A stretch of DNA of 64,000 nt from Acidobacteriota bacterium. Its GTDB lineage: Bacteria; Acidobacteriota; Holophagae; Holophagales; Holophagaceae. Position 1 is the stretch's first letter, and each line of letters starts with the position of its first letter. Shown here one piece after another: positions 7,731 to 58,500 of the stretch. Location of the stretch: assembly GCA_016192145.1 (NCBI GenBank), contig JACPUT010000002.1, forward strand, positions 372,001 to 436,000, given 5' to 3'. Below the pieces are notes generated by a model. It searched no databases. It saw only the letters and a list, made by a program, of their open reading frames with translations, and was not told where the DNA came from. Made by a program: the position numbers and the translations under genes.

Positions 7731-10121
7731 CTAGAAGGTGAGTTTCAGGGTGTAGCCGTTCACGGTGCTGGCCCCGCTGTAGTACTTCACGCGGACGTAG
7801 TAGGTGGCGGAGGCGCCGCTGTTGGTGACGCTGGCGGCATCCACGAGCCCCTTGCCCTTGACCGAGCTGGCCACCTGGGTGCCGGCGCTGTTGTAGAGGT
7901 AGAGGTCGAAGTCGCTGGCGCTGGGGGGCGTCAAGGTGGCGGAGAGGGTGCGGCCCGTGCCGAGGGTCACCTTGAAGTAGTCCGTATCGGAGGTGGTGCT
8001 GATCTTCCCCGTGACGGTGGTGCCGGTGGTGGTCACGGCGTTGGCCGTGGCGGTGGTGTTGTTGCTCTCCACCTCGGCCTGGGTGCCGCCCGTGGTGTTG
8101 TTCACGGTGAAGGCGACGGAGGTGGAGGTGGCCACGTTGCCGGCCGCGTCGTAGGCCTTGGCCGTGAGGCTGTGGCTGGCGTTGGAGAGGGTGGTGCTGT
8201 CCAGCGTCATGGAATAGGGGGAGGTGGTGTCGGTGCCCTTGAGGACGCCATCCACGTAGAACTCCACCTTGGTGACGCCGACGTTGTCGGAGGCGGAAGC
8301 GGAGAAGGTGATGGTGCCGCTGGTGCCGCTCTCCGTGGCGGAGACGGTGGGGGCGGTGGTGTCGCCGCCGGTGCCCGTCCACTTGGCACCCACGTTGATG
8401 GCCGCGAAGGCGTTCCACACGGCCTGCTCCTCGGGGGAACCGGCGCCGTAGAGATCCTTGGCGCTGCTGATGGCGGCCGTGCGGGCGGCGGCGTAGTTGG
8501 AGGAGGCGGTGAGGTAGGTGGTGAGAGCGCGGTACCAGATGCGGGCGGCGTGATCGTTGCCGACGCCGGTCATGCCGCCGGGCAGGTAGGAGCTGTAGAA
8601 GTCGCTGGTGGAGCTGCTGCTGGATCCCTGGCTCATGAAGTACCAGGCGCGGTTCATGGGGCCGCTGCTGTAGTGCACGTCGATGCTGCCGATGCCGCTG
8701 TACCAGGCATCCTTGGAGCCGCCGTCCTTGCTGGGCTTGTACATGTAGCGCAGGGCCGTGCCGGGGTGGCCCCAAGAGTTCTCGAACATGGTGTAGTTGG
8801 CGGTGATGCTGCCGCTGCCGGCGGCATCGGGCACCACGGAACCGGTGCCGCCACCGCCCAGCACGTAGAACTCCACGCAGGTGCCGAAGATGTCGGAGGT
8901 GGATTCGTTGAGGCCGCCGCTCTCGCCGGAATAGGTGAGGTTGGCGGTCTTGGAGGTCACGCCGTGGGTCATCTCGTGGCCCGCCGTGTCGAGGTCGGCC
9001 TCGCCCACGGAGCCGCCGGTGGCGCCATCGCCGTAGGTCATGCAGAAGCAGCTGTCGGACCAGAACGCGTTGTCGTACTGGGTGCTGTAGTGCATGCGGC
9101 TGTAGGTGGCCTTGCCGGTGTTGTCGATGCCGTTCCGGCCCAGGACGTTCTTGAAGAAGTCCCAGGTGGACTGGAGGCCCCGGTGGGCATCCACGGCGGC
9201 GGTCTGGGCGTTGGCGCTCATGCCGGCGGTGCCGTTGTATTGGAGGCCATCGCCCCAGGCATTGTCGGCATCGGTGAAGATGCTGCCGTTGCCGCTGGTG
9301 CCGTTGTTCAGGTTGGTGGTGATGTTGTTGCCAAAGGTGCCGCCGGTGCCGCGGGTCATATCGCGCAGTTCGTAACCGGTGGCGGTGCTGTTGGTGTTGA
9401 GGTTCACCGTGCCGTACCACTGGGACTTGCCGGTGCCCACGGCGGCGGAGGTGCGGAGGGCGTCCCACTGCTTAAGGATGGCGCCGCTGTGGGCGTCGAC
9501 CAGGTATTCCATGTGGCGGGTCTCGCCAGTGCCGTTCTCCAGCTGGGTGCGCACGAGGTAGGCGAGGTGGGTGCGGACCACTTCCACCTTCTCCATGGTG
9601 GCGTCGAAATCCCCGGCATTCATGGGGCCGCGGGGGCGGACCACCCGGGTGGCGGTGGCGGGGTAGACCACGAGTTCCACGGTGGGTTGGTAGGCGTACT
9701 CGCCCTGGGGGGCCAGGGCCTGGTGGGCTACGGCCAGGGCTTCGGCCTCGGTGAGGTTGGGCGCGGTATTCACGCGCAGGCCCAGCTTCAGGTCGGAGGT
9801 CTGGGGCGCGAAGGCGCCTTCGGAATCCTGGTGGGTGATCACCTCGCCGCCGAAGACCCGGATGCCCTGGTAGGTCTGGTGGAAGCGCCCGTGGGCCATG
9901 CCGAACTCGTCGGTGTGGATGCCCTTGAGGCTGAAGCCGTGCTGGGGGTCGAGGCCGAGCACCTGGCGCGCGGCGAGGAGGTGGCTTTCGGCCACCTTCG
10001 CGCGGGCGCCCTCCTGGGCGCGGAGGGACTCGATGGCCGGGGCGGCGAAGGGGGCCCTCTGGGCCACGAGGGGCGCGACGGCGAGGCCGAGCGCGAGCAG
10101 GGTGAGGGGGGATCGGGCCAT
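7731..10121 (-). CDS. M4 metallopeptidase 2, with Ig-like and PPC C-terminal domains
   Basis: A 796-residue secreted zinc peptidase, closely related to peptidase 1. Signal peptide about 1-21 (LTLLALGLAVAPLVAQ), FTP-type propeptide, catalytic HEMTH (His382, His386) and Glu406. The tail has an Ig-like module (VTKVEFYVDG) and a PPC domain ending YTLKLTF. Start: the ATG at 10121 has GGAG 6 bp upstream; an in-frame TTG four codons earlier overlaps that GGAG and is unlikely. Compared with peptidase 1 it has a longer loop after the active site (around the YVLGGGGTG segment). It lies within the tandem array under its own repeat-type promoter. Confidence 0.95.
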   Translation of the reverse strand: MARSPLTLLALGLAVAPLVAQRAPFAAPAIESLRAQEGARAKVAESHLLAARQVLGLDPQHGFSLKGIHTDEFGMAHGRFHQTYQGIRVFGGEVITHQDSEGAFAPQTSDLKLGLRVNTAPNLTEAEALAVAHQALAPQGEYAYQPTVELVVYPATATRVVRPRGPMNAGDFDATMEKVEVVRTHLAYLVRTQLENGTGETRHMEYLVDAHSGAILKQWDALRTSAAVGTGKSQWYGTVNLNTNSTATGYELRDMTRGTGGTFGNNITTNLNNGTSGNGSIFTDADNAWGDGLQYNGTAGMSANAQTAAVDAHRGLQSTWDFFKNVLGRNGIDNTGKATYSRMHYSTQYDNAFWSDSCFCMTYGDGATGGSVGEADLDTAGHEMTHGVTSKTANLTYSGESGGLNESTSDIFGTCVEFYVLGGGGTGSVVPDAAGSGSITANYTMFENSWGHPGTALRYMYKPSKDGGSKDAWYSGIGSIDVHYSSGPMNRAWYFMSQGSSSSSTSDFYSSYLPGGMTGVGNDHAARIWYRALTTYLTASSNYAAARTAAISSAKDLYGAGSPEEQAVWNAFAAINVGAKWTGTGGDTTAPTVSATESGTSGTITFSASASDNVGVTKVEFYVDGVLKGTDTTSPYSMTLDSTTLSNASHSLTAKAYDAAGNVATSTSVAFTVNNTTGGTQAEVESNNTTATANAVTTTGTTVTGKISTTSDTDYFKVTLGTGRTLSATLTPPSASDFDLYLYNSAGTQVASSVKGKGLVDAASVTNSGASATYYVRVKYYSGASTVNGYTLKLTF

Positions 10122-10316: not shown

Positions 10317-12803
10317 CTACTTGAGGGAGACGGCGTCCACGGCGAAGGAGGTCTGCAGGCTGCTGTCCTCCGTCATCTTGAAGTAGATCTGCACGGTCTG
10401 GCCCTTGTAGGCGCTCAGGTTGAAGGTGCGGATCTGGTAGCCCGTGGCCTTGTTCAGGTTGGAGTAGGTGGCCAGGGTGGAAAGCACGGTGCCGGCGCTG
10501 TTGAGGACCTGCACCTGGAGCTTGTCGTAGGCGGTGGTGGTCGTCGTCTCAGCGGTGTCGATGTGCAGCGCGAAGGTCAGCGTGCCCGTGGCGCTGCTGG
10601 GGATGGCGATGGTCTGCTTGAGGGTTTCGGTGGTGGTGGCGCCGTTGCCGCCGAGCCAGGCGTTCTTGGTGCCGGCGTAGGCGGGCTGACCCGTCCAGGT
10701 GCCGATGGCGCCGGTGGTGCCCGTCCAGCCGGTGGCGCCGCTTTCGAAGCCGCCGTTGACGACGAGCTCCGTGCCCGAGGTGGTGTTGCTCACGGAGAAG
10801 GCGACGGAGGTGGAGGTGCCGATGTTGCCGGCGGCGTCATAGGCCTTGGCGACGAGGGTGTGGCTGCCGTTGGCCAGGGTGGTGCTGTCAAGGGTGGAGC
10901 TGTAGGGGGAGGTGGTGTCGGTGGCCTTGAGGACGCCGTCCACGTAGAACTCCACCTTGGTGACCCCCACGTTGTCGGAGGCGGTGGCGGAGAAGGTGAT
11001 CGTGCCGCTGGTGCCGGATTCGGAGGCCGAGCAGGTGGGGGCGGTGGTGTCGGAGGAGCCGCCACCGGACCACTTGGCGCCCACGTTGATGGCGGCGTAG
11101 GCGTTCCACACGGCCTGCTCTTCGGCGGAGCCGGCGCCATAGAGATCCTTGGCGCTGTTGATGCTGGCGGTGCGGGCCGCGGCGTAGTTGGAGCTGGAAG
11201 TGAGGTAGGAGGTGAGGGCCCGGTACCAGATCTTGGCGGCCTTAAGGGGGCCGATTCCGGTCATGCCGGCGGGGAGGTAGGAGCTGTAGTTGTCGGCCCC
11301 GGAGGTGGTGCCGGCGCCCTGGCTCAGGAAGAAGAACATGCGGTTGTTGGGGCCGCTGCTGTAGTGGACGTCGATGGAGCCGAGGCCGCTGTACCAGGCA
11401 TCCTTGGAGGAGCCATCCTTGCTGGGCTTGTCGAGGTAGCGCAGGGGGCTGGCGGCCAGCTGTTCGCCGAGCTTCCAGGCGGTGTTGGTGTTGGTGACGG
11501 TGGCGGGGATGGTCTTGCCGTTGCGGGCGTAGATCTCGATCATGGCGCCGAAGATGTCGGAGTTGGACTCGTTCAGGCCGCCCGACTCACCGGAGTAGGT
11601 GAGGTTGGCGCTGTTGGCGCAGACACCGTGGGTCATCTCATGGCCGGCCACGTCCAGGGCCGTCAGCGTGGTGAAGCTGCTGCCATCGCCGTAGGTCATG
11701 CAGAAGCAGCTGTCGGACCAGAAGGCGTTGTCGTAGCTGTTGCCGATGTGGACGCGGGAGTAGGTGGCCTTGCCTGCGCCGTTGATGCCGTTGCGGCCGT
11801 GGGTGCCCAGGAAGTAGTCCCAGGACATGGCCATGCCGTACATGGCGTCCACCGCGGCGGTCTGGCCGTTGGCGGCGGTGGTGGAGCTGCCTTCCACGTA
11901 GTTGGCGCTGTCACCCCAGGTGTTGTCGGCATCCGTGTAGATGGTGCCGGTGGCCGTGGAGGTGGTGGAGGCGTGGTTCGAGTTGGTGACCACGTTGTTG
12001 CCGAAGGTGCCGCCCGTGCCGCGGGTCATGTCGCGCATCTCGTAGCCGGAGGTGACGCTGTTGGTGTTGACCGTCACGGTGCCGCTGTACTGGCTGTTGC
12101 CGGTGCCAGTGGCAGCCGTGGTGTGCAGGGTGTTCCAGCTCTTCAGGATGGCGCCGGTGTGGGCGTCCACCATGTAATCGGTGTGCTTGATGCCGTCGAG
12201 GTCGTTCTCGAGTTCGGTGTGGACGTGGTAAGCCAGCTGGTAGCGAAGGACATCCTCGCGGACCAGGGTGGCATCCACTTCCATGTCGATGGCGCGGGTG
12301 CGGGGCCGAACGACGCGGGAGGCGGTGACGGGGAAGACCACCAGCTCGGCGGAGGGCTGGAAGGAGTAGTCCCCCTTGGGGGCGAGCACGCGGTGGGCGG
12401 CGGCCAGGGCCTCGCCCTCGCTGAGGCTGGGGGTGGTGTTGACCTGGATGCCCCTGCGGAGGTCGTTGGTGGGAGCGGCGAAGGCGCCGTCGACCAGCTG
12501 GTGCGTGATGATCTCGGCGCCGAACACCTTCACGCCGTTGAACACCTGCTGGAAGCGGGCGTGGGCCTGGCCGAACTCGTCGGTGTTGACCCGGCCGAAG
12601 CGGAAGCCGTGCTGGGCATCCAGCCCCAGCACCTGGCGGGCGGCCAGGAGGTGATCCGCGGCGGCGGCGGAGCGGGCCCCTTCCTGGGCGCGGAGGGCCG
12701 CGACGGCCTGGGCGGGGAGGACGGCCTTCTGGGCGAAGGCGGGCATCGCCGCGAGGGTGAGGGCGAGAACGGACAGACGGGTATAACCCTTCGTTGCTGC
12801 CAT
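10317..12803 (-). CDS. M4 metallopeptidase 3, with Ig-like and carbohydrate-binding-like C-terminal domains
   Basis: An 828-residue secreted zinc peptidase. Signal peptide about 1-25 (LSVLALTLAAMPAFAQ), FTP-type propeptide, HEMTH (His388, His392) and Glu412. After the Ig-like module (VTKVEFYVDG) the tail differs from peptidases 1 and 2: instead of PPC there is a domain of about 150 residues beginning LVVNGGFESGATGW and ending FAVDAVSLK. This resembles NGGFE-type jelly-roll modules of the CBM4/9 kind, so it may bind carbohydrate or another matrix. Start: the ATG at 12803 has GGAG 6 bp upstream; the longer frame adds 33 residues before the signal peptide. Confidence 0.94.
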   Translation of the reverse strand: MAATKGYTRLSVLALTLAAMPAFAQKAVLPAQAVAALRAQEGARSAAAADHLLAARQVLGLDAQHGFRFGRVNTDEFGQAHARFQQVFNGVKVFGAEIITHQLVDGAFAAPTNDLRRGIQVNTTPSLSEGEALAAAHRVLAPKGDYSFQPSAELVVFPVTASRVVRPRTRAIDMEVDATLVREDVLRYQLAYHVHTELENDLDGIKHTDYMVDAHTGAILKSWNTLHTTAATGTGNSQYSGTVTVNTNSVTSGYEMRDMTRGTGGTFGNNVVTNSNHASTTSTATGTIYTDADNTWGDSANYVEGSSTTAANGQTAAVDAMYGMAMSWDYFLGTHGRNGINGAGKATYSRVHIGNSYDNAFWSDSCFCMTYGDGSSFTTLTALDVAGHEMTHGVCANSANLTYSGESGGLNESNSDIFGAMIEIYARNGKTIPATVTNTNTAWKLGEQLAASPLRYLDKPSKDGSSKDAWYSGLGSIDVHYSSGPNNRMFFFLSQGAGTTSGADNYSSYLPAGMTGIGPLKAAKIWYRALTSYLTSSSNYAAARTASINSAKDLYGAGSAEEQAVWNAYAAINVGAKWSGGGSSDTTAPTCSASESGTSGTITFSATASDNVGVTKVEFYVDGVLKATDTTSPYSSTLDSTTLANGSHTLVAKAYDAAGNIGTSTSVAFSVSNTTSGTELVVNGGFESGATGWTGTTGAIGTWTGQPAYAGTKNAWLGGNGATTTETLKQTIAIPSSATGTLTFALHIDTAETTTTTAYDKLQVQVLNSAGTVLSTLATYSNLNKATGYQIRTFNLSAYKGQTVQIYFKMTEDSSLQTSFAVDAVSLK

Positions 12804-17128: not shown

Positions 17129-18784
17129 TTAGTTGACGTTGATGGCCTTGAAGGCGTTGGCGACAGCCGTGTATTCGGCGCTGCCGGAGCCGTAGAGGGC
17201 GGTGGCGGCGTTGAGGCAGGCGGTGCGCGCGCCGGCGTAGGTGGTGGAGCTCGTCATGTAGCTGGTGAGGGCTTTGAAGACGATGCGGGCGGCCTTGTCG
17301 TTGCCGATGCCGGTCATCCCGCCGGGCAGGTAGGTGGAGGCGTAGTTGCCCGTGCCCGTGCCCTGGCTCAGGAAGTAGAAGCAGCGGTTCATGGGGCCGC
17401 TGGAGTAGTGCACGTCCAGGCGCTTGAGGCTGGTGCTCCAGGCGTCCTTGGAGGATCCATCGAGGCTGGGCTTGTACATGTAGCGCAGGGGGCGGTTGAA
17501 GCTGGGGGTGGCCAGCTGCTCGCCGATGGTCCAGTTGCCGCCCGAGGCGGGGATGGTGGCAGCGGAGCTGCCGCGGTAGAACTCGGCCATGGTGCCGAAG
17601 ATGTCGGACATGGACTCGTTCAGGCCGCCGCTCTCGCCGCGGTAGGTGAGGTTGGCGGTGCGGCTCGTCACGCCGTGGGTCATCTCGTGGCCGGCCACGT
17701 CCAGGGCGGTGAGGGTGAGGAAGCTGCTGCCGTCGCCGTAGGTCATGCAGAAGCAGCTGTCGGACCAGAAGGCGTTGTCGTAGCTGTTGGAGTAGTGAAC
17801 GCGGCTGTAGGTGGTGGTGCCGGCGCCGTCGATGCCGTTGCGGCCGAAGACGTTCTTGTACATGTCCCAGGTGACGCCCAGGCCGTAGTGGGCGTCCACC
17901 GCGGCGGTCTGGCCGTTGGCGGCAGTGGTGGAGGAGCCCTCCACGTAGTTGGCGCCGTCGCCCCAGCCGTTGTCGGTGTCGGTGTAGATGGTGCCGGTGC
18001 CGCTGGTGGCGTGGTTCAGGTTGGTGGTGTAGTTGCCGGCGGTGCCGCGGGTCATGTCCCGCATCTCGTAGCCGGAGGCGGTGCTGTTCGTCTGCAGCGT
18101 GACGTTGCCGGAGAACTGGCTGTTGCCGGTTCCGTTGGCGGCGGTGGTGTGCAGGGTGCTCCAGCGGTCGATCACGGCGCCGGTGTGGGCGTTGAGCAGG
18201 AAGTCGGTGTGGGCCGTCTCCTCCGTGCCGTTCTCGAGTTCGGTGTGGACATGGTAGGCCAGGGTGTAGCGGACGACCTGCTCCCGGGAAATCTGCGTGC
18301 CGAAGTCCATGTCGAGGGCGCGGCGGGAGGGGCGCACCAGGATGGTCTCGGTCTCGGGGACGATGACGAGTTCCACCTTGGGGGCGTAGGCGTAACCTCC
18401 CTTGGGGGCCAGGATCTGGTGGGCCAGGGCGAGCGCTTCGCTGGCCTGGAGGCCGGGGGTGGTGTTCAGGGCGGCGACGGGCTGGTGGGCCAGGGTCATG
18501 GCGCGCTGATTGCCCTCGCGGTCCGTGTGGGTGATCACTTCCCCGCCGAAGATCTTCACGCCCTGAAACGTCTGCTGGAAGCGCGCGTGGGTCATCCCAA
18601 GCTCGTCCGTGGCGGCGTTGAGGATCCGGAAATCGTGCAGGCCGTTCAGGCCCAGGGACTGGCGCTGGGCCATGACATGGCTGGCGGCAGCCTGGGTGCG
18701 GGCGGCGTGGTCGGGGGCGCCCGCCAGGACGGCCGTGGCCGTGAGGGCCAGGGCGAGTGCGGAGAGGGGGAGACGATGGGCCAT
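17129..18784 (-). CDS. M4 metallopeptidase 5, minimal form without C-terminal accessory domains
   Basis: A 551-residue secreted zinc peptidase. Signal peptide about 1-20 (LSALALALTATAVLAG), shorter propeptide, HEMTH (His366, His370) and Glu390. It ends at NAFKAINVN, like peptidase 4. Start: the ATG at 18784 has GGAG 9 bp upstream and begins the signal peptide; the longer frame adds 30 residues. A local difference from the paralogues is WSTSLKRLDVHYS in place of WYSGIGSIDVHYS. It is the first of the array, next to der, under promoter E. Confidence 0.95.
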   Translation of the reverse strand: MAHRLPLSALALALTATAVLAGAPDHAARTQAAASHVMAQRQSLGLNGLHDFRILNAATDELGMTHARFQQTFQGVKIFGGEVITHTDREGNQRAMTLAHQPVAALNTTPGLQASEALALAHQILAPKGGYAYAPKVELVIVPETETILVRPSRRALDMDFGTQISREQVVRYTLAYHVHTELENGTEETAHTDFLLNAHTGAVIDRWSTLHTTAANGTGNSQFSGNVTLQTNSTASGYEMRDMTRGTAGNYTTNLNHATSGTGTIYTDTDNGWGDGANYVEGSSTTAANGQTAAVDAHYGLGVTWDMYKNVFGRNGIDGAGTTTYSRVHYSNSYDNAFWSDSCFCMTYGDGSSFLTLTALDVAGHEMTHGVTSRTANLTYRGESGGLNESMSDIFGTMAEFYRGSSAATIPASGGNWTIGEQLATPSFNRPLRYMYKPSLDGSSKDAWSTSLKRLDVHYSSGPMNRCFYFLSQGTGTGNYASTYLPGGMTGIGNDKAARIVFKALTSYMTSSTTYAGARTACLNAATALYGSGSAEYTAVANAFKAINVN

Positions 18785-20891: not shown

Positions 20892-20968
20892 TGGCGGGGC
20901 TGACGGGGCTCGAACCCGCGACCTACGGCGTGACAGGCCGTCACTCTAACCGACTGAGCTACAACCCC
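20892..20968 (-). tRNA. tRNA-Asp (anticodon GTC)
   Basis: A 77-nt cloverleaf read on the minus strand. The acceptor stem GGGGTTG pairs with CAGCCCC, followed by G and an encoded CCA. The D-arm contains TAGCTCAGTCGGTTAGAG. The anticodon stem-loop GACGGCCTGTCACGCCGT has GTC in the loop. The T-arm is GCGGGTTCGAGCCCCGT. It lies 27 bp downstream of tRNA-Val in the same transcript. Confidence 0.95.
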
Positions 20969-20995
20969 GTGCTGTCACTGACTTCACCAGCGAGC

Positions 20996-21071
20996 TGGTG
21001 GGCGATGACGGATTCGAACCGCCGACAGGCTGCGTGTAAAGCAGCTGCTCTACCGACTGAGCTAATCGCCC
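20996..21071 (-). tRNA. tRNA-Val (anticodon TAC)
   Basis: A 76-nt cloverleaf on the minus strand. Acceptor GGGCGAT/ATCGCCC with encoded ACCA, D-arm TTAGCTCAGTCGGTAGAGC, anticodon loop CTTTACA with TAC, and T-arm GGCGGTTCGAATCCGTC. First gene of the two-tRNA unit. Confidence 0.95.
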
Positions 21072-21269: not shown

Positions 21270-21764
21270 GTGGCGACCATGCTGGCGAATATGATGATCT
21301 TGGATGGCGTGGGGGACCTCCTCAAGTCCCTTCCCGACCCGATGCGGCCCTACCCTGGGCAGATCGCGATCGTGATCGTGCTGGTGGGCGTGCTCACCTT
21401 GATCCTCCGCGGCAGCTTCTTCACGCCGATGATGGCGCTGGTGGACGAGCGGGATCGCCAACTCACCGCCGGATCCGACACCAAGGCCAATGCCGCCGCG
21501 CTGGTGGAGTCCAAGCAGAAGGACTACGAGGCCCGGCTGAAGGATCTCCGCGCCCAGGCTGCCGCCCACCGCAAGTCCCTTGCCGAGGCCGCCGCCAAGG
21601 AGCGCCAGGCCACCGTGGATACGGCCCGCGCCCAGGCGACGACCCAGCGCAAGGATGCCCTGGCCAAGCTCGCCACCCAGCGCGAGGCCGCCAAGGCGGA
21701 CCTCATGCTGCAGGTGGATCAGCTCGCGGACGGCATGGTCCAGCACCTTCTGAAGCAGGCCTAG
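21270..21764 (+). CDS. ATP synthase F0 subunit b' (second b-type subunit)
   Basis: About 164 residues. One membrane segment (about residues 30-50, IAIVIVLVGVLTLILRG) is followed by VDERD and a long Ala/Lys/Glu-rich coiled coil. This is the standard layout of a b-type peripheral-stalk subunit. A second b-type subunit follows directly, so the enzyme probably has a b/b' heterodimer as in phototrophs and many delta-group bacteria. Start: GTG at 21270 is preferred because GGAG lies 5 bp upstream; in-frame GTG at 21231 and ATGs at 21279 and 21291 are alternatives. First gene of the atp operon. Confidence 0.85.
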   Translation: MATMLANMMILDGVGDLLKSLPDPMRPYPGQIAIVIVLVGVLTLILRGSFFTPMMALVDERDRQLTAGSDTKANAAALVESKQKDYEARLKDLRAQAAAHRKSLAEAAAKERQATVDTARAQATTQRKDALAKLATQREAAKADLMLQVDQLADGMVQHLLKQA

Positions 21765-21769
21765 ACGCG

Positions 21770-22516
21770 ATGACCCGATTCCGATTGATCTCCTCCCTCC
21801 TCCTCGGTGCCGCCCTCGCGATGGCGCCGATCTCCCTCCGCGCCCAGGGCCACGGGGCTCCCCAGCAGGAGTCCCACGAAGCCCCCAAGCACGAAACCCC
21901 TGCTGCAGGCCATGAGGCGCCTGCCGCCCAGGGTGACGCGCATGCGGTCGCTGGTCATGGCGAGGCCCACGCGGCTCCCGCAGATGGCCATGGCGAAGCC
22001 CACGGGGCTGCTGCCGCCCACCACGGCCTCAACTGGAAGGAGCTGATCTTCAAGCTCATCAACTTCGGCCTCTTCATCGGCATCATCTGGATGGCCGCCG
22101 CCGCCAAGGCGAAGATGGGCTTCAAGGCCCGCGCCGAGGAGTTGGAGGGCGCGTTGCGGCAGGCCGCCCGCGACAAGGCCGAGGGCGAGGCGCAGATCGC
22201 CTCTCTGGAATCCAAGATGAGCGGCCTCCAGGCCGAGCTCGACGGGATCCTGGCCAAGGCCGAGAAGGATGCGGAGGCCGAGAAGGCCCGCGTCATCGAG
22301 GCCGCCCGCGCCGAGGCGCAGACGATCCTGGCCCAGACCCAGTCGGAGATCGCCTTCCAGCAGAAGCAGGCCGAGCAGGAGCTGAAGGCCCTCGTCGCCC
22401 AGCTGGCCGTGGAGGGCGCCACCGCCCGCATCCAGGCCAAGCTGCAGGGCGCCACCGCCGCCTCCGCCATCGACAAGGCCATCACCCAGATCGGCAACCA
22501 GGGAGCCCACCAGTGA
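21770..22516 (+). CDS. atpF: ATP synthase F0 subunit b with N-terminal signal-like segment and His-rich insert
   Basis: A 248-residue peripheral-stalk subunit. The C-terminal 165 residues look normal: membrane helix FKLINFGLFIGIIWMAAAA (about 95-113) and a long coiled coil. The N-terminus is unusual. Residues 1-25 look like a cleavable signal peptide or extra membrane anchor (ISSLLLGAALAMAPISLRAQ), followed by about 65 residues rich in His, Ala, Gly and Glu (repeats such as GHGEAHGA and GHEAPA). Typical AtpF is about 160 residues with no such region. The segment would lie on the outer face of the membrane and could bind metal. Five bp after the b' gene; overlaps atpH by 4 bp. Confidence 0.88.
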   Translation: MTRFRLISSLLLGAALAMAPISLRAQGHGAPQQESHEAPKHETPAAGHEAPAAQGDAHAVAGHGEAHAAPADGHGEAHGAAAAHHGLNWKELIFKLINFGLFIGIIWMAAAAKAKMGFKARAEELEGALRQAARDKAEGEAQIASLESKMSGLQAELDGILAKAEKDAEAEKARVIEAARAEAQTILAQTQSEIAFQQKQAEQELKALVAQLAVEGATARIQAKLQGATAASAIDKAITQIGNQGAHQ

Positions 22517-23055
22517 GCAGCCGCCTCATCGCCCGCCGCTACGCCAAGGCCCTCATCGAGATCGGCACCAATTCCGGGGATCTCGCCGGCCTGCAGGCCG
22601 AGCTGGATTCCGTGGCCAAGCTCGTGGCCGGCAACGCCGACCTGAAGCGCTTCGTGGACAGCCCCCTCGTGCTGCCCCGGAAGAAGGCCGAGGTCATGGA
22701 TGCAGTGCTGGGCCAGGCCAAGGCCAGCCAGAACCTCCGCAACTTCTTCAAGGTGGTGGCCGAGGCCGGCCGCCTGAACCTGCTCACCACCCTCAGCACC
22801 GTCTTCCATGAGCTGGTGGATGAGCGCGCGGGCGTGGTGGTGGCCCAGGTGGCCTCCGCCCAGGAGCTCACCGACGCCCAGAAGAAGGCCCTCGAATCCT
22901 CCCTCGCCAAGCGCACGGGCAAGACCATCCGCCTGAAACTCAGCCAGGATCCCTCGCTGCTCGGCGGCGTGAAGGTCCAGCTGGGTTCCACCGTCCTGGA
23001 TGCCTCGCTCCAGGGCCAGCTCCGCCTTCTCAAATCCCAGCTGCTTTCCGCTTAA
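22513..23055 (+). CDS. atpH: ATP synthase F1 subunit delta
   Basis: A 180-residue subunit that joins the peripheral stalk to the top of F1. It shows the family layout: N-terminal helical bundle starting SSRLIARRYAKALIEI, and the C-terminal conserved segment DPSLLGGVKVQLGSTVLDASL. It starts with GTG overlapping the atpF stop (GTGA), with GGGAG about 7 bp upstream, so it is translationally coupled to atpF. Confidence 0.95.
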   Translation: MSSRLIARRYAKALIEIGTNSGDLAGLQAELDSVAKLVAGNADLKRFVDSPLVLPRKKAEVMDAVLGQAKASQNLRNFFKVVAEAGRLNLLTTLSTVFHELVDERAGVVVAQVASAQELTDAQKKALESSLAKRTGKTIRLKLSQDPSLLGGVKVQLGSTVLDASLQGQLRLLKSQLLSA

Positions 23056-38548: not shown

Positions 38549-39022
38549 CTACTTCCTCGGCTGACCCGGCTCCAGTCCCATGCGCGTGGCCCGACGAGGC
38601 AGGGCGGCGTTGAGCCGGGCGAGGAAGGCCGCCTCGTGGCACTTCCGGCAGGTGGCGTCCCGATTGACTTTGGAGACGGGTGAATCCGCCCGCTTGGGAC
38701 TGACGATGTCGTGGGCCTTCCCGTGGCAGGACTGGCAGGTGGGGGCATCCTTGCGGCCCTCGGAGGCGGCCTTGCCGTGCACGCTCTGACGGAGGCTCTC
38801 GTTCTCGTGGTGGTGGCACCGGGCGCAGACCACGGGCGCGACGACGTCCTCGTGGGGCAGGGCCTTGATGGAGCGGTGGCACTGCACGCACTGGAGGCCG
38901 CCATGGGTCTTCCCGCGGAAGACCTCCAGGTTCACGGTGTCATGGCACTCCAGGCAGGCGGTGGCCTGGGGCGGCCGGTCGATGGGCGGCAGGGTCAGGC
39001 AAGCGGCCAGAAGCATCCACAT
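38549..39022 (-). CDS. five-haem c-type cytochrome, periplasmic
   Basis: 157 residues with five CXXCH motifs in order: CLECH, CVQCH, CARCH, CQSCH and CRKCH. A short signal-like N-terminus (MWMLLAACLTLPP) precedes the first haem. Additional His residues (CHHHENE, SVHGKA, FRGKTHGG) can be distal ligands. It is probably a small periplasmic electron carrier; multihaem cytochromes are common in metal-reducing Geothrix, but no reductase or outer-membrane partner is encoded nearby. Start: ATG at 39022 with GGAGG 5 bp upstream; the longer frame adds 18 residues. Confidence 0.88.
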   Translation of the reverse strand: MWMLLAACLTLPPIDRPPQATACLECHDTVNLEVFRGKTHGGLQCVQCHRSIKALPHEDVVAPVVCARCHHHENESLRQSVHGKAASEGRKDAPTCQSCHGKAHDIVSPKRADSPVSKVNRDATCRKCHEAAFLARLNAALPRRATRMGLEPGQPRK

Positions 39023-50136: not shown

Positions 50137-52500
50137 ATGCGCCGATTCCTGGGTTCCCTCGCCTTCCTCGCCGCCTCCGCGCCATCGCCCCTCCGGGCCC
50201 AGGCCGGATTGCTCGTGCCCACCAGCACGGGCCGACCCGACGCGCGCGTGCTTTCGCTGCGCGAGATGAGCATCGACATCGGCCTGGCCCGGGGCTATGC
50301 GCGCGTCAACGTGCGGCAGGTCTTCGAGAACCACACGAACGATATCCAGGAAGGCACCTACCGCTTCGCGCTGCCCGCCTCGGCGGCCGTGGGCGATTTC
50401 GCAGTCTGGGATGGCCTCCAGCGCATCCCCGGCGTGATCCTCGAGAAGAAGCGGGCCCGCGCCATCTACCAGGAACTGACGCGACAGCGCATCGATCCCG
50501 GCCTCCTGCAGCAGGGTGAGGAGGAGGATGGCGAGGCGGGAGACGGCCGGTCGACCCGGCCCTCCGGCGGCGCGCTGTTCTCCGTCACCGTGGCCCCCAT
50601 CCCGGCCCACGCCACCAAGCGCCTGGAGCTGCAGTTCCAGCAGGAGGTGCCCTTCATCGGCGGCATCGGCGAGTTCCGCCTCGTGCTCCGCCCCCCCGAT
50701 GGCGAAGCCCCCACCGCGCGCCACCTCACCGTGAAGATCTCTCTGGACGGGGCCTTCGAGGCCGTGCCCGCGGGCCTGCCCCTGACGGCGAGTGCCGACG
50801 GTGCCGCGTTCACCGGCGAGAACGTGCGCCTCGACCGCGACCTCGTGCTGCGCGTCCGCCCCAGGGGCGGGGAGCCCCTGCGGCTCACTGCCTTCCGCAA
50901 CCCCGAAGGCGTGCTTCCCGAGGGCCTCGCGCTGGCGCCCTGGGAGCGCCCTTCCGAGATCCCGCCCGAGAAGGATGGCTTCTTCCTATTGGAGGCCCTG
51001 CCGGCCCCCGGCTCCAAGGTGAAGGCGGGACCTTCCGCCAAGGCCGGTCCTGCGGAACCGAAGCGCCCCGCGCAGGCGCTGGCGATCCTCTTCGACACCT
51101 CGCTGAGCCACCGCTGGGCCGGGTTGGAGACCGCCTACGCCCACCTCGTGCGCGCCCTGCAGTCCCTCGCCAGCGGAGATCGCTTCGCGCTCATCGCCTA
51201 CGACCGGACGGTCGCTGAAAATGCGCGCCTCCGTCCCGCCTCCGCGCAGGATATCGAAGCCGAGCTCACGGCCCTGCGCTCGCGCCCCCTGGGCCCCGGC
51301 GCCAACCTGGGCGCGGCCGTGGCCGTGGCCCGCAAGCTGGTGGGCGATCAGGGCCGGATCCTCCTGCTCACCAGCGGCCAGGGCCTGCCCGCTTCCAAGT
51401 CCCTCAAGGCTACGCTGGGCGCCACTCCGCTCTTCGCGGCCGTGACGGTGGGCGAGGCGGGCGAGTCTCTGCGCGCCGCTTCGGCCCAGGTGCTCTCCAA
51501 CACCGCCACGGAGATCGAGGGGGACCTCTTCTTCAAGCGCCTCCTTACGCCGCCGGAAGCCCCGGAAGCGCCATCGAAAAAGGTAGGTGAAGGCGGGAAC
51601 GCCCCCTTCACCGTCACCGGCGGCGACCCGAAGCTGCGCCACATCTACTCCGTGCTCGTGCAGCCCATGGAACCCGGCAGCCTCTCCGCCTGGGTGGGCC
51701 GCTACGCCGTGCCGCAGCCCAAGGTGCGCGTGGAGCTGGCCTCCCCGCTCTTCAAGGATGGCAGGCTGGGCCTCGACGGCGCCTTCCCCGAGAAGGCCCT
51801 CGAGGCCCGCGACCTGCCCCGGCGCTGGGCCCGCGCCCGGGTGGACGACCTCCTCGCCCGCATCGAGGCGGAAGGGGAGCGGCGCGAATGGGTGGACGAG
51901 ATCATCGAGCTCTCCAAGCGCTACAAGTTCATCACGCCCTACACGGCCTTCCTCGCGGCGCCGCGCTCCCTCCTCCGGCCTCGCCGCATCCAGCCCGGGG
52001 ATCCCGTGCTCCGCGTGGAGTGCGATGAGGGCACCGCCTTCGCGACGGCCCTCTTCCCCTTCGGGCTGAAGCTGGATCTGGTGCGCCGCCCGGCGACCAA
52101 CGTATGGGAGGGCCGCTTCCTCGTGCCCGAGGGGCTGAAGGATGGCCGCTACCCCGTGCGCATCCTCATGCGGGATCGCAGCGGCGCCCGCCTCAGTGAG
52201 ACCAAGCACTACGTGCTGGATGGCAGGGCCCCGGAGATCCAGCCCCAGCTGCCCGCCACGGCGCAGGCCGGCGAGGTGCTGCGCGTGGAGGTGAAGGCCG
52301 ATGAGGATGTCGTCCTCCTCACCGCCCGGCTCGGGGATGGCCCGCCGATCCCCCTGCGCTGGGATCCCGCGGCCAAGCGCAGCGTGGGCCTCCTGCGCAT
52401 CCCCGCGGAAGCGCGCGGGGCGCAGGAGATCCTCTTCGAAGCCGTGGATGCCGCCAAGAATCGTGGATTCGCCCGTGCCGCCCTGGAGGTGAAGCCGTGA
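50137..52500 (+). CDS. exported VIT and von Willebrand factor A domain protein
   Basis: 787 residues with a signal peptide (FLGSLAFLAASAPSPLRAQ). An N-terminal VIT domain spans about 40-190 (LREMSIDIGLARGYARVNVRQVFENHTNDIQEGTYRFALP; VILEKKRARAIYQEL). A VWA domain follows at about 310-480 with the metal site DTSLS (DxSxS) in LAILFDTSLSHRW. The C-terminal 250 residues are Ig-like in part (RYPVRILMRDRSGARLS). VIT-VWA proteins mediate metal-dependent protein binding outside the cytoplasm. It overlaps the next gene by 4 bp (GTGA). An acidic insert EEEDGEAGDGRSTRPSGG interrupts the VIT domain. Confidence 0.88.
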   Translation: MRRFLGSLAFLAASAPSPLRAQAGLLVPTSTGRPDARVLSLREMSIDIGLARGYARVNVRQVFENHTNDIQEGTYRFALPASAAVGDFAVWDGLQRIPGVILEKKRARAIYQELTRQRIDPGLLQQGEEEDGEAGDGRSTRPSGGALFSVTVAPIPAHATKRLELQFQQEVPFIGGIGEFRLVLRPPDGEAPTARHLTVKISLDGAFEAVPAGLPLTASADGAAFTGENVRLDRDLVLRVRPRGGEPLRLTAFRNPEGVLPEGLALAPWERPSEIPPEKDGFFLLEALPAPGSKVKAGPSAKAGPAEPKRPAQALAILFDTSLSHRWAGLETAYAHLVRALQSLASGDRFALIAYDRTVAENARLRPASAQDIEAELTALRSRPLGPGANLGAAVAVARKLVGDQGRILLLTSGQGLPASKSLKATLGATPLFAAVTVGEAGESLRAASAQVLSNTATEIEGDLFFKRLLTPPEAPEAPSKKVGEGGNAPFTVTGGDPKLRHIYSVLVQPMEPGSLSAWVGRYAVPQPKVRVELASPLFKDGRLGLDGAFPEKALEARDLPRRWARARVDDLLARIEAEGERREWVDEIIELSKRYKFITPYTAFLAAPRSLLRPRRIQPGDPVLRVECDEGTAFATALFPFGLKLDLVRRPATNVWEGRFLVPEGLKDGRYPVRILMRDRSGARLSETKHYVLDGRAPEIQPQLPATAQAGEVLRVEVKADEDVVLLTARLGDGPPIPLRWDPAAKRSVGLLRIPAEARGAQEILFEAVDAAKNRGFARAALEVKP

Positions 52501-55500
52501 ACCTCGCACCCCTCACTGCTTCCGCCCGCCGCTGGATGTTCCGGAAACCGATCCGTACCGCCGTCGTGGCCGGCCTCGCCGCCGTGGGCATCGCCGCGAC
52601 CGTGCCCTGGACCGAGCTCACGGAGGCCGATTGGGTCTACGCCCTCGCCACGCGCTTCTCCCTGGTGGATGGCCATCGCGTGCACTACCCCACGCCCTCC
52701 GCGGAACTGGCCAAGCTCCTCGAGGGACGCGGCGAGACGTCGGCCCTGCGCCACCTCGCCGAGGCCCGGATGAGCCTGGGCGATCGCAAGGGCGCGCTCG
52801 CGGCCATGGAGAAGTGGGCCGCCGCCGAAGGCGCCCAGGCCTGGGATGAGACGGCCCGCTGGGCCGCCGGCCACAAGGAGATGGAAGCCGCCTTCCGCGC
52901 CGCGGAGAAGGCCCTGCCGGGGCTGCCGGAAGAGGCGCGGCTCGACCTCGCCAACCGTCGCATCGAGTGGGCGGTGCTCCACCCGGAGGCCGCCGACGCC
53001 CTCGCCCTGCGCAAGGCCCGCGTGGCCCTCTTCCCGGCGAATGCCCAGGCCCTGGAGGACTACGTCCGGGCCCTGGAAAAGGCGAATCGCCTCCCGGAGG
53101 CCGACGCGGCCCTCGCCGCCTCCCAGGCCCTGGGCCCGGAGCGGCGCCTGCTCCTGCGCGCCGATCTGCTGGCCTCCCACGGCGATCCCCGGGCGGCCTT
53201 CCAGGTGCTGGATGCCGCCGTGGCGGAACCCTGGACCATGGACTTCCGCCGCGCCTACGTGGCCCGGGTGGACAAGGGATCCCCCACGGCGCCCGCCGGC
53301 TGGCGCGGTACCCTGGAGGCCCGCTTCGATGCGGCCGCCCTCGTGCGCCTCGCCACCTATTTCGAAGGCCAGGGCCGCGGGGATGCCCTGGCGGATCTGC
53401 TCCGCCAGATGGAGCGACGCTACGGCCGGGAACTCACCCGCAAGGATCAGCTCCTCCTGGCCCGCCTCCACGGGGAGATCGACGCGGTGCCCGAGGCCTT
53501 CCGGGCCCGGCTCGCGGCCGCCCACCTCGGCAGCGCCGAGGACCAGCACGGGGATCTCGCCGCCCTCGCCCACCTCGCCCTCGGCGCGGGGGGACGTCCC
53601 CTCGCCTGGGGCACCTACAACGACGAATCCTACAAATGGGTGGCGAGCCTCGACCGCACGCCGGGCTTCTGGACCGGCGGCCTCTCCTTCCTCCTCACGG
53701 GCGAGGATTGGAAGGGCGCCCTGGCGCGCCTCGAGAACGAGAGCCTCTCCGATCGCACCTTCGCCACGGCCCGGATGCTGGCCGACGAACTCGTGCGCCG
53801 GGCGCCCCGCCATGCGGATCTGCCCGCCCTGCGCGTGGCCCTCATGCGCAAGCACGTGGAGCGCGGCGAGGGCAGGGCGGCTCTCGCCCTCCTGCCCCTC
53901 GTGGAAGCCGCGCCGCCGGCCATCGCCGACGAGGCCCGCCGCGTGGCCCTGCTCGCCGTCATTCTGGCGGACGTGCCGCTCGCCGAGGAGGTCCGCCTCT
54001 TCAAGGCCCGCCTGAAGCACCTCGCCCCCGATGGCACCCGGCCCCTGGCCCCGCGCGGCGCCCCCTACTCCAGCGGTTCGGAAGGCGAAGGGGACTACGA
54101 AGGTGCCTATGACGAGTCCCATGGCGAAGCCCGTCCCTGGGCGCGGCAGCGCCTCGCGCAGCCCTCCCAGACCTACGCCAGGCTGCTGGATGAAGGCCTC
54201 TCCCGCCTCGAGCACCTCAACCCCGACCACCGCGCCTCCCTGGATCTGATCCTCACGGAAATGGACCGCCTTCCGGACGACGAGCAGCTCTGGATGCAGC
54301 TCGCCTCCCGCCTGGGGAGCTGGAACTTGGATGACGAACTGGGCCCGCGCTTCGAGCGCGCCCTCAAGGCCTTCCAGGGCCCCGGCATCTGGGACAAGGC
54401 CGCCCGCTGGTACGCCCGCCGGAACCAGCACCAGGCCCTCCGCGGCCTGGCCCAGTCCGTGGCCGACCGCTTCCGCGGCACGGCCCTCTTCGCCAAGGTG
54501 AACGGCGCCGGCGACGTGCGCGTGGAAGTGCCCGAGCAGCCCACCGTGGGCGGCCGCGTGCGCATGGTGCTCTGGGCGGATTGGGTCCGCCTCAAGGCCC
54601 TGGAGCGCTTCCCCCACAGCCCCGCCGTCGTGCAGCAGGCCCAGAACCTCGTGGCCATGAGTGCTTACCAGAAGCGCTTCGATCCGGTGAAGGAAGCCCG
54701 GCTTCCGCACACGGTCACCGTGGTGCCCGACGCCCTCATGGAGGAACGCCGCTGGGCCATCCTCTTCGTGGACGCCAGCCAGCGCGAGGCCTGGTTCGAG
54801 GAGGCCATGCGCAAGGGCAACCTGGAGGCCCGCCTCGGGGCCCTCGAGGCCAAGACCGACCGCACGCCCGTGGAGGATCTCCTGCTCTTCGAGGGCTGGT
54901 GCCGCCTCTCCCGCTTCGAGCGGGCCATGGCCCCGGGCGATCGCCTGGCCGCCAGCTATCCCGGCGACGGCGCCCTCGCGCATCGCGTGCTCTCCCTGCA
55001 CCGCTCCCTCAACGGGCTGGAGACCTCCCACGCCGGCCCGGCCATGGCCCTCGTGGCCCGCACGGCCCCGGCCCTGGAGGATCCCAGCAGCCTGTGGACC
55101 GAGCTCGGCGAGCTGGAGGAGGATCGCGGCCGTCCCCAGGCGGCCATGGAGATCTGGAAGCACCTCGCCGATGGCGAAGCGCGCAACCCCCAGCGCATCT
55201 CCGAGTGGTCCACGCTGCTCTGGGACTACCACCACGACAAGGAGGCCCTGGCCGTCGTCGAGGAGGGCCGCCAGCGCCTCGGCCGCCCGAAGTTCTTCGC
55301 CTTCGAGACGGGTGTCCTGCGCGAGAACCTGAAGGATCTCGACGGCGCCGTGCGCGAGTACCTGAACGCCCTGCGGCCCGAGGAGGCCCACGGCTTCGAT
55401 TGGTTCGAGCAGGATCAGCGCTCCCTGCGCCGATTGGCGCAGCTCCTGGCCCGGGAGCGCGTCTATCGCCTCGTGGAGGCCCGCATCAAGGCCCTCAAGC

Positions 55501-58500
55501 CCGGCGTCGCCGAGGACGAGCGGACCCTGGCGGGCTACTACCCCCTGGCGGGCATCGAGCCCCCGGCCCCGGGCTTCGATTGGGATGCGGATTCCTGGAT
55601 CGATTCGATGGACCTGCCCAACGACCCCGTGGGGCGCGGCCAGCGCGCGGAGCGCAAGGTGTCCGAGCGGCCCCGGGAGTACGACGCCATCCAGCGCATC
55701 GGCGATCTGCTCCTCGAGAAGACCCGCGAGATGGCCCCCCGGGCCACGGTGGTGGAGTTCGTGAACGCCGCCGACACTTGGAGCCAGCGCCTCATCGAGG
55801 CACGCTGGACGCCGGATCAGGCGATCACCTTCCAGAGCGGCCTCATGGCCCGCCGGGCGGCCCTGTCCCCCTCCGATGAAGATCGAATTCAAAAGGAGAT
55901 GGCCCGCGCGGACTTCCTCTCCGGCAAGGGGCGCGCCGCGGAGGCCGACGCCGTGTGGGCCTCCCTGGATGCCCGCATCGGCGCCCTGCCCGAGGGCTCC
56001 GTGCGCCTGAGGGCCGAGGCCGGTCGCGCCGGCTACCTGGAGCGTGCCAAGGGCGTGGAGGCCGCCGCCGCCGAGTGGCGCCGCGTCACGGGCCGCTACC
56101 CCTGGAGCCTCGGGCTCCTGGAGGATCGCCTCGCCTTCCTGCAGCGCAACGCCAAGGGCGAGGAGGCCCGGGCTGCCTTGGAAGGCGTGCTGCCCAAGGC
56201 GGCCGCCGGCCATCGCGAACCCCTACTGGAACGCCTCACCCAGGAGTGCCTCGCCGCCCATGACCTGCCCCGCGCCCGCCGCGCCGTGCAGCTGCTCCTG
56301 GCCTCCGAGGGGTTGGACGATGCGCGCCGCCTCGGCGCCATCCACCTGATGGCCCGGCTCTCCCTCAAGGAGAATGCCGGCTGGGATCCCTATGCCTTCG
56401 CGAAGGTCGAGGCCGCCAAGCTGAGGCCGGAGCTCCACGCGGAGCTCTACCGCACCCTGGCCCGCGCCGTGGATCTGGAGGGCGGCACCGGCCCCGTCCC
56501 GGGCCTCTGGATCGAAGCCCTCAACCGCCGCACCGAGCGCGAGTGGGTGGAGGCCGCCTCCCGGTCCGCCAAACGCGCGGGTAAGGGCCCGGAGCTCCTC
56601 ACCTTCTTCGAGAAGCAGCTGCAGCGCAGCCCCCGCGACGTGCGGTGGGCCGTGGCCGTGCGGGACATCCGGAAGGTCTACCACGATGTCGAAGGCGCCC
56701 TCGCGGCGGCCAGGGCCGCCGTGGCCGTGCGTCCCGAGCAGGAGATCCTCTGGCGCGAAGCCGTGGAGCTGATGGTGCGGGCGGATCGCCCCTTGGACGC
56801 CGCCGATTACCTGGAAGGCTGGAACAAGCCCCGCCTCGCCGATGAAGGCGTCGCCCGCTGGCGCGGTCAGCTCTATGCGCAAGCCGGCGATGGCGCTAAG
56901 GCCCTGGCCACGGAGCAGGCGGCCCTCGCCGCCTACCGCCGCGAGAACGCGGGGGATGTGAGCGGCCTTCAGGAACGGACGGCCCGGTCCGCCGAGCGGC
57001 TGCTGGAGTACGGCTTCCCGGATCTGGCCCTGCGCCTCTACTCCCCGAAGCACGATGCCCGGGATCTGGTGAACACCCGCCTCTCCCTGGAACGCCAGGC
57101 GCAGATCGCCCTGCTGAACAACCAGTTCGTGCGCCTGCTGGCCACCACGCCGGAGCAGGATCGCCGGGGCTATCTCGTCGGGTCCCTCGTTCGGCATGGG
57201 CGCGGGGATCAGCGGGAGGAGGTGCTCGCCCACATCCTGCGCAGCGTCTACCCCGTCAGCGGCCAGCCCTCGAATACGGCCCTCACCACCTGGTGGCCCG
57301 TCGCCCAGCAGGCGGAGCTGGAAGAGCCGCTCCGCATGGCCATCGCCCAGCGGCTCCTCGCGAACCGCCCCGGCTCCTGGCAGGCGGGGGCCCCCGTGGC
57401 CTTCCTGCAGGCCTTGAGCGCCTCAGTGGTGCACCATCGGAGCCTCAACGGCAACCGGTGGTGGGAACTCCAGACGCCCGACGTGGAGGGCCTCTGGGCC
57501 CGGGATCTCGCCCGCCGCGACCGCGGCGAGGAGCTGCTCGGCTTCGTGGAGCCTCGCTGGCAGGAACTCATGGCCCAGGTACATCAACCCTTGTGGATGA
57601 CTACTTCCCTGAAGAGCATCGGTAAGGATCTTTCCGCCGACACTCCCCGCCAGCCCTGGTCCCTCTGGCTGGATGATCCCCGCGTGCTCGCCGTATGGGC
57701 CCGCGCCGTGGCGAACCATCCCGAGAAGGTGAAGGACCTCTCCGAGGTCATGGGCAACCGCGCCCTTTGGGACCGGTTCTGGGTGCTGGCCGCTCGCCAC
57801 TGGAAGCCGGAGCCCCTGCTGGCGGCGCTTCCGCAAGACACGCGCCTCGCCTGGTTCAGGTTCTGGGAACCGGCGCTGCAAGCGCAGGATCCCGTGCTCG
57901 TCGCCCGACACCGCGTGGTGGAGCAGGTCACCACGGCGCTGGGCCGCCTCGTGCAGGGCGCGCCCGATGCCGTGAAGGACCCCCTCATCGCCAAGCTGCG
58001 CGGCCCCCAGACCGTGGGCGAGGTGCTGGGCAAGGGCGGCCAGTGGACGTGGCCGGAGTTCACGCCACGCCGCGACGCCAAGGGCGAACTCAAGGAAGAG
58101 GGCGATGATCGCGTCCTCGGCTCGGGCGTGGATCAGGGCCGCGTGCCCGGCGCCCTCTGGGGCGATCGCCCCGGCGAGGCCTGGTACGTGCTCGAGGCCC
58201 TCGCCCGCCATCGGCAGGGGGATGCCTCGGCGCCCTACCTCCCGCTGGATGCGCCCGTGCGCGGCGGCGAAACCAGCCGCACCCTGCTGGCCATGCGCAT
58301 GGCCCGCGCGGAGCGGAACCTGCCCCTCGCCCTGGAGATCATGGGTCGCCGCCCTGGCGGCGCCCACGACCGCGCCTGGCTCGAGGGCCAGGTCGCGCTG
58401 CTCGTGGCCGCCAACCAGCGCGAGCAGGCCGTGGAGACCTTCGGCGCCTACGTGCTGGCGGCCCAGGCCAAGCTCACGGAAGGGGAGTTCCGCAGCCTCG

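Follow-up and report, generated by a model that had tools for sequence, protein, structure and literature searches.

The 64-kb stretch of Holophagaceae (Acidobacteriota) DNA that we analyzed, here called the window, encodes an ATP synthase b subunit (AtpF) that carries a signal-peptide-like N terminus and a histidine-rich tail ahead of its membrane helix. The feature is real, and it is found in nine of the ten genera of the family that have a readable b. Our overall reading, held tentatively, is that this protein is the b subunit of a b/b′ stalk, that its signal peptide would be cleaved, and that its periplasmic His/Glu tail may serve as a brush that collects and buffers protons locally. Many b subunits of Acidobacteriota are apparently synthesized as precursors for export, a point to consider in annotation, expression, and structural work.

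Gene context and assignment of AtpF

The window contains part of an F-type ATP synthase operon: genes for b′, b, and delta, identified with Pfam, are followed by those for alpha, gamma, and beta, identified from ORF reading. The a and c genes of the same genome sit on a different contig. The features discussed below are as follows.

21279..21764, + strand: upstream partner b′, 161 aa from the ATG at 21279; GTG 21231 is a possible alternative start
21770..22516, + strand: downstream b subunit AtpF with extended N terminus, 248 aa; Pfam PF00430
21770..21844, + strand: signal-peptide-like segment, residues 1 to 25, with a proposed cut at A25/Q26 (home-made rule and conservation)
21845..22027, + strand: predicted disordered His/Ala/Gly/Glu-rich tail, residues 26 to 86, with 11 His (composition; pLDDT)
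22019..22024, + strand: membrane-proximal His pair H84-H85 (HHG; HH conservation)
22034..22504, + strand: b membrane helix and stalk helix, residues 89 to 245 (AlphaFold; Pfam)
22513..23055, + strand: AtpH (delta/OSCP), the next gene, whose start overlaps the end of b (Pfam OSCP, E = 1.1e-49)

The Pfam ATP-synt_B match of AtpF spans residues 92 to 221 (E = 1.1e-13) and scores 51.9 bits against a curated PF00430 cutoff of 28; about 88 residues thus precede a b subunit of normal length, close to the roughly 90 extra residues of the original prediction, which had divided them into a signal-like segment and a His-rich stretch. The gene adjoins those for delta (Pfam) and alpha (ORF reading), as expected for b in an atp operon, and the AlphaFold model shows, at high confidence, the b architecture of one membrane helix running into a long stalk helix (residues 89 to 226). 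The 11 sequences returned by a PDB sequence search all bear the name ATP synthase subunit b and match from query residue 78 or beyond. The best NCBIfam match (TIGR01144, 49.5 bits) falls below the cutoff for b of 65.5: AtpF appears to be a divergent b member, and we claim the broader Pfam label alone. We rejected an identity as the b subunit of an N-ATPase (alternate F1F0), for which TIGR03321 scored 36.2 bits against 224.7; a delta gene is also present. The upstream b′ matches PF00430 (E = 4.5e-10), and its best NCBIfam match is subunit B′, at 51.6 bits under a cutoff of 131; it has no signal peptide by our home-made rule and no His tail.

Several other features of the window may be recorded here. 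Genes for tRNA-Asp and tRNA-Val lie on the opposite strand just upstream of the atp genes (20892-21071, − strand). Three exported-looking proteins (7731-10121, 10317-12803, and 17129-18784) have N-terminal regions that are similar by eye; with gene limits taken from our own caller, none had a Pfam match at E 0.001, nor did a very long called ORF of 2,568 aa (52497-60203). A small multiheme cytochrome c7/c3-like protein is encoded at 38549-39022 (− strand).

Composition and predicted structure of the tail

The AtpF tail, about 60 residues long, is rich in Ala, Gly, His, Glu, and Pro. Residues 26 to 93 include 11 His (positions 28, 36, 41, 48, 58, 63, 67, 74, 78, 84, and 85), compared to a His frequency of 2.36% in the called proteins of the genome (binomial P = 5.6e-7). 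GHGEAH occurs twice, accompanied by GHEA and HEA variants, and the more than ten His of the original prediction are present; at the DNA level, Tandem Repeats Finder detected no tandem array in this region at score 30.

We compared the tail with 355 called proteins from a 464-kb sample of the genome (the window plus 20 stretches of 20 kb). AtpF contains the most His-dense 65-aa stretch of the set, with 11 His versus at most 10 elsewhere, and the next two stretches look like antisense miscalls; the codon-based caller, which replaced a crude ORF filter dominated by antisense ORFs, lets some such calls through. Among 61 signal-like proteins, the 65 aa after the predicted cut contain 10 His in AtpF and no more than 5 in any of the remaining 60. 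Ten proteins have a 62-aa stretch that is rich in A/G/P/E and of low hydrophobicity: that of AtpF has 11 His, and those of the other nine have 0 to 6.

AlphaFold predicted a short helix at residues 3 to 18 and helices at residues 89 to 226 and 228 to 245, with block means of pLDDT above 90 for residues 91 to 220. Nearly all of residues 24 to 85 have a pLDDT below 50 (24 to 51, 53 to 70, and 72 to 85), and on this model we would call the tail a disordered brush, not the domain that the original prediction had made of it. The model is silent on cleavage and partners. Foldseek found no match for it in the PDB, which is unremarkable for a single long helix.

The tail across Holophagaceae

Our first family sample consisted of the 30 best-scoring loci of one genome listing plus earlier loci, to which the remaining loci were then added. 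Fifty rows yielded 41 distinct family proteins, 39 of which were aligned for AlphaFold; dropped rows were two copies of the window (L021 and L022) and a truncated locus (L019). The widened set holds 56 distinct b proteins. For proteins, cleavage-like sites, and His pairs, respectively, the script gave 57, 51, and 47, which became 56, 52, and 48 by hand: L221, a duplicate of L004 given a wrong fallback start, was removed, and L225, which lacks a basic residue and so failed the signal rule, and whose fallback start was likewise wrong, was judged by inspection to bear a signal and to carry 10 His. The rule missed L004 as well, although by eye its N terminus resembles a signal; its start was fixed manually. 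Left out were L229 (b′ only), L230 (truncated), and L228 (from genome G028), whose sole b match is a different kind of b with a short N terminus that scores 70 bits to the family profile and perhaps belongs to a second ATPase. In all, 52 of 61 family genomes were examined; in the other nine, the b match is absent, truncated, or of the other kind only.

Taken as the segment between the cut and the point where the helix profile begins, the tail is 39 to 86 residues long (median, 72) in the 41 distinct proteins, and pooled His makes up 12.9% of it versus 0.3% of the remaining protein. In 37 of the 41, a His pair precedes the membrane-helix profile by no more than 32 aa, as it does in 48 of the 56 proteins of the widened set (L225 hand-corrected). 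The residues before the b′ helix contain no His (375 residues; 25 distinct stretches of 15 aa).

One genus, g9, is the exception: the b subunits of its three genomes (G008, G017, and G024; 0.9 to 1.2 Mb) all lack both signal and tail. These proteins (L208, L209, and L210), which lend themselves to functional comparison, start some 25 residues ahead of the helix profile, have no His in that segment, and retain a (K/N)LxGYAL stretch similar to the KLFG motif in other family b subunits. The g9 c subunits (L171 and L172, from two of the three genomes) still look signal-bearing. The b signal and tail are thus dispensable in this lineage, by loss or by never having been gained. A dense tail is dispensable too, because tails with only 1 to 4 His occur elsewhere in the family (L013, L222, L211, and L214); the widened set ranges from 0 (the three g9 proteins) to 13 His (L006). 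Comparison with related AtpF proteins, which had been proposed as a check, upholds the extension as a family feature (cleavage-like site in 52 of 56 and HH in 48 of 56) with three signal-less and tail-less exceptions.

Possible roles of the tail

We tentatively suggest, without placing it at even chances, that the tail could be a brush that gathers and buffers protons locally for the a/c interface, because the b N terminus adjoins subunit a where protons enter the channel from the periplasm. The gene would supply the b half of a b/b′ peripheral stalk. The N terminus of its product would direct Sec export as a signal peptide, which signal peptidase I would most likely cut off behind A25; the mature chain would then start with a disordered periplasmic tail of about 60 residues (11 His plus Glu/Asp), end this tail in a His pair at the membrane surface, and continue as the usual helix into the cytoplasm and stalk. 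Supplying groups that titrate near pH 6 to 7, such a His/Glu brush would collect or buffer protons for the a/c interface, and would be useful rather than essential, provided that the c ring carries H+ and not Na+. In E. coli, the available text of PMC9447477 describes a periplasmic funnel that feeds subunit a, lined with acidic groups and histidines from a and the b1 N terminus, and proposed to be a proton antenna; the same text discusses on structural grounds whether ATP synthase requires a proton-collecting periplasmic surface. A family of enzymes with 0 to 13 tail His, including a tail-less genus, offers a way to test periplasmic proton collection.

A stronger version seems unlikely to us: a dedicated proton antenna on the stator which, together with the His-rich C-terminal tail of subunit a described below, would leave both ends of the proton path His-buffered, and which would have been given up in the small-genome genus. 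The conserved HH pair would then anchor the brush at the periplasmic mouth of subunit a.

The signal might instead merely insert b, with the tail a flexible filler from repeat expansion and chance amplification of HEA/GHEA units, a neutral linker that we consider possible at perhaps one chance in three. The tail is of low complexity with repeat-like units (L003 has several near-identical AGHEAQP units), its length and His number vary widely, and g9 manages without it, which makes a functional reading slightly less likely and a neutral linker slightly more so. In 238 gapped tail pairs, which are not independent, identity was highest for His (0.83, compared to 0.70 for Ala, 0.72 for Gly and Pro, and 0.56 for Glu), but in seven ungapped pairs of equal length, His (0.79) did no better than Ala (0.78), Pro (0.78), Glu (0.77), or Gln (0.83). 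Since the excess vanished in this control, we treat it as an alignment effect and reject special conservation of His; selection, if any, would act on composition, because His is no more conserved than its neighbors once alignment freedom is removed. The ratio dN/dS was 0.51 for the signal, 0.17 for the tail, 0.15 for the membrane part, and 0.14 for the stalk, the tail value being unreliable because its synonymous distance is near saturation, probably as a result of misaligned repeats; the many indels in the tail also suit a neutral linker. Against it, the membrane-proximal HH is kept in most of the widened set, other A/G/P/E-rich stretches and exported N termini in the genome sample are far poorer in His, and His enrichment recurs in the long tails of other families. 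Measured against the His frequency of the window's genome, seven long other-family tails contain 31 His in 394 residues (P = 9e-9), and 28 signal-like b subunits with tails shorter than 35 residues contain 17 in 447 (3.8%; P = 0.04), little more than the proteome level and a point against the proton-brush reading. Six of the seven long tails carry 3 to 6 His, above the proteome average; L090 has 2 in 72 residues.

By analogy with other enzymes, the tail could bind a divalent metal, Zn2+ or another, on the periplasmic side and so cap or regulate proton entry, or store metal; we think this rather unlikely. The density of His and the HH pairs would suit such binding, and the available text of PMC12796488 both cites a Zn2+ proposed for the Polytomella half-channel on the periplasmic side and describes a metal that caps the cytoplasmic channel in the enzyme of Pseudomonas aeruginosa. 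According to the same text, however, the periplasmic site of the P. aeruginosa enzyme shows just water. The spacing of tail His is broad (mostly 1 and 3 to 8, once 2), which argues against a fixed motif, and Cys accounts for 0.1% of tail residues. Metal or proton buffering, as first predicted, is possible from the sequence, but the prediction is weakened by the loss of the His-conservation excess in ungapped pairs, by members with 1 to 4 His, and by the tail-less g9.

Probable export and cleavage of AtpF

Residues 1 to 25 of AtpF are MTRFRLISSLLLGAALAMAPISLRA. By our home-made rule, which looks for a basic n-region, a hydrophobic h-region or stretch, and small residues before the cut, they have the features of a Sec signal peptide. 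The rule's own best cut for the window protein follows residue 19; we prefer A25/Q26 because an xxA/[QE] cleavage-like site is kept in 40 of the 41 distinct Holophagaceae b proteins (52 of 56 in the widened sample, with L225 hand-corrected), and because few N-terminal positions reach 90% conservation in the 39 aligned proteins, A25 and Q26 among them.

The rule fired on the downstream b of 46 of 47 paired family loci, of both unpaired loci, and of the window (two collections, duplicates included), and on the upstream b′ of 4 of the 47 paired loci. Among 20 further family loci, it marked 15 b subunits as signal-like, against 3 of 19 b′ subunits; of the five b misses, three are truly signal-less, one duplicates L004, and one is L225. 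The feature had been presented as an oddity of one gene, which proved too narrow: at 40 paired loci of other Acidobacteriota families, hand-picked from the paired genomes among the matches listed (38 families, two of them sampled twice), the downstream b is signal-like in 30 and b′ in none. Where the stretch holds a single b, 5 of the 30 best-scoring loci among the matches listed are signal-like. Signal-like AtpF N termini also occur in some phyla other than Acidobacteriota.

The N terminus of b is periplasmic by established topology, which would place the tail outside the cell whether or not it is cut free of the signal. Export of AtpF is well supported by the conservation of the signal segment and A/Q site in most family members, by the impossibility of a downstream start, and by this topology; we judge AtpF very probably exported, and the outside location that had been predicted fits. 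Signal peptidase I probably cleaves the protein, most likely after A25. Alternatively, the signal-like helix would be kept as an extra membrane helix, so that b would cross the membrane twice, its His tail forming a loop in the periplasm. Such a hairpin fits the topology equally well, LRA/Q is not a textbook AXA site, and our rule favored a cut after residue 19; we nevertheless find it improbable, given the 40 of 41 proteins with a cleavage-like site and the unusual conservation of A25 and Q26.

The frame upstream of 21770 is open for 172 codons without ATG, GTG, or TTG; from 21770 on, in-frame starts lie at codons 1, 6 (TTG), and 18, and the next is codon 108, within the membrane helix, so a b subunit of normal length with an intact membrane helix cannot come from a usual start codon in the window gene. 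A mis-called start, with the real protein a normal b beginning near the membrane helix, can therefore be set aside with near certainty: although in 35 of the 41 family proteins, for which an internal start is conceivable, the tail region contains an in-frame ATG (mostly 10 to 16 codons before the helix profile), and although the g9 b does begin near the helix, the search for a downstream start in the window gene found no ATG, GTG, or TTG between codons 18 and 108, which rules one out, the tails of L024 and L029 have no in-frame ATG, GTG, or TTG, and signal and cut site are conserved at the protein level.

Subunits a and c of the same genome

The subunit c of the window's genome (locus L123, 2367-2678, contig 7) has a signal-peptide-like N terminus, as do most Acidobacteriota c subunits examined; by a lenient rule, such N termini occur at 35 of 35 family loci and 22 of 25 other-family loci (duplicates included). 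The c subunit of Aquifex aeolicus bears a signal peptide and resembles AtpF as an FO subunit with a signal-like N terminus; it differs in being c, not b, and in having no His tail.

The subunit a encoded at the same locus (L123, ~1378-2175, contig 7) has 9 His in its last 25 residues. The corresponding count in 58 other a sequences (duplicates included) is 0 to 5, with 5 in L192 and L201, both from other families, and the C terminus of a in congener G010 is ordinary, without a His-rich tail. This subunit a is also more divergent, at 137.7 Pfam bits versus 156 to 177 in the other full-length family matches. The C terminus of subunit a is cytoplasmic by established topology.

Comparison with known systems

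AtpF of the window shares with F-type b/b′ subunits the Pfam domain (PF00430), the helix-stalk architecture, and the gene order b′-b-delta-alpha, and differs from them in its signal-like segment and His-rich tail of about 60 residues. The available portion of PMC4154653 reports duplication of b within the locus in acidobacteria and others, and it mentions extensions on other subunits and a C-terminal extension on the N-ATPase b, but none of the kind seen here. Among the titles and abstract openings listed from the open-license literature that we searched, none describes a signal peptide or His-rich tail on a bacterial AtpF, which is weak evidence of absence; the available portions of PMC4955376, PMC7717971, PMC4154653, and PMC9360617 likewise contain no such feature.

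The published parallels that we found concern subunit a, not b. In P. aeruginosa, as described in the available text of PMC12796488, His and acidic residues of a terminal tail form a metal cap at a proton half-channel; this is similar to the situation proposed for AtpF, but the cap belongs to subunit a, lies on the cytoplasmic side, and has a defined tetrahedral site. Functionally, the closest parallel comes from the ice worm Mesenchytraeus solifugus, whose ATP6 (subunit a) has a His-rich C-terminal extension that is said to raise ATP synthesis once transferred to E. coli ATP synthase (Dunkley et al. 2025, as cited in the available text of PMC12796488). The tail of subunit a in the window's genome resembles this extension, at the cytoplasmic end as in the P. 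aeruginosa case. AtpF is like ice worm ATP6, as far as that citation describes it, in bearing a His-rich extension on an FO stator subunit; the ice worm extension is C-terminal, on subunit a, and eukaryotic, whereas that of the window is N-terminal, on b, and predicted to be periplasmic.
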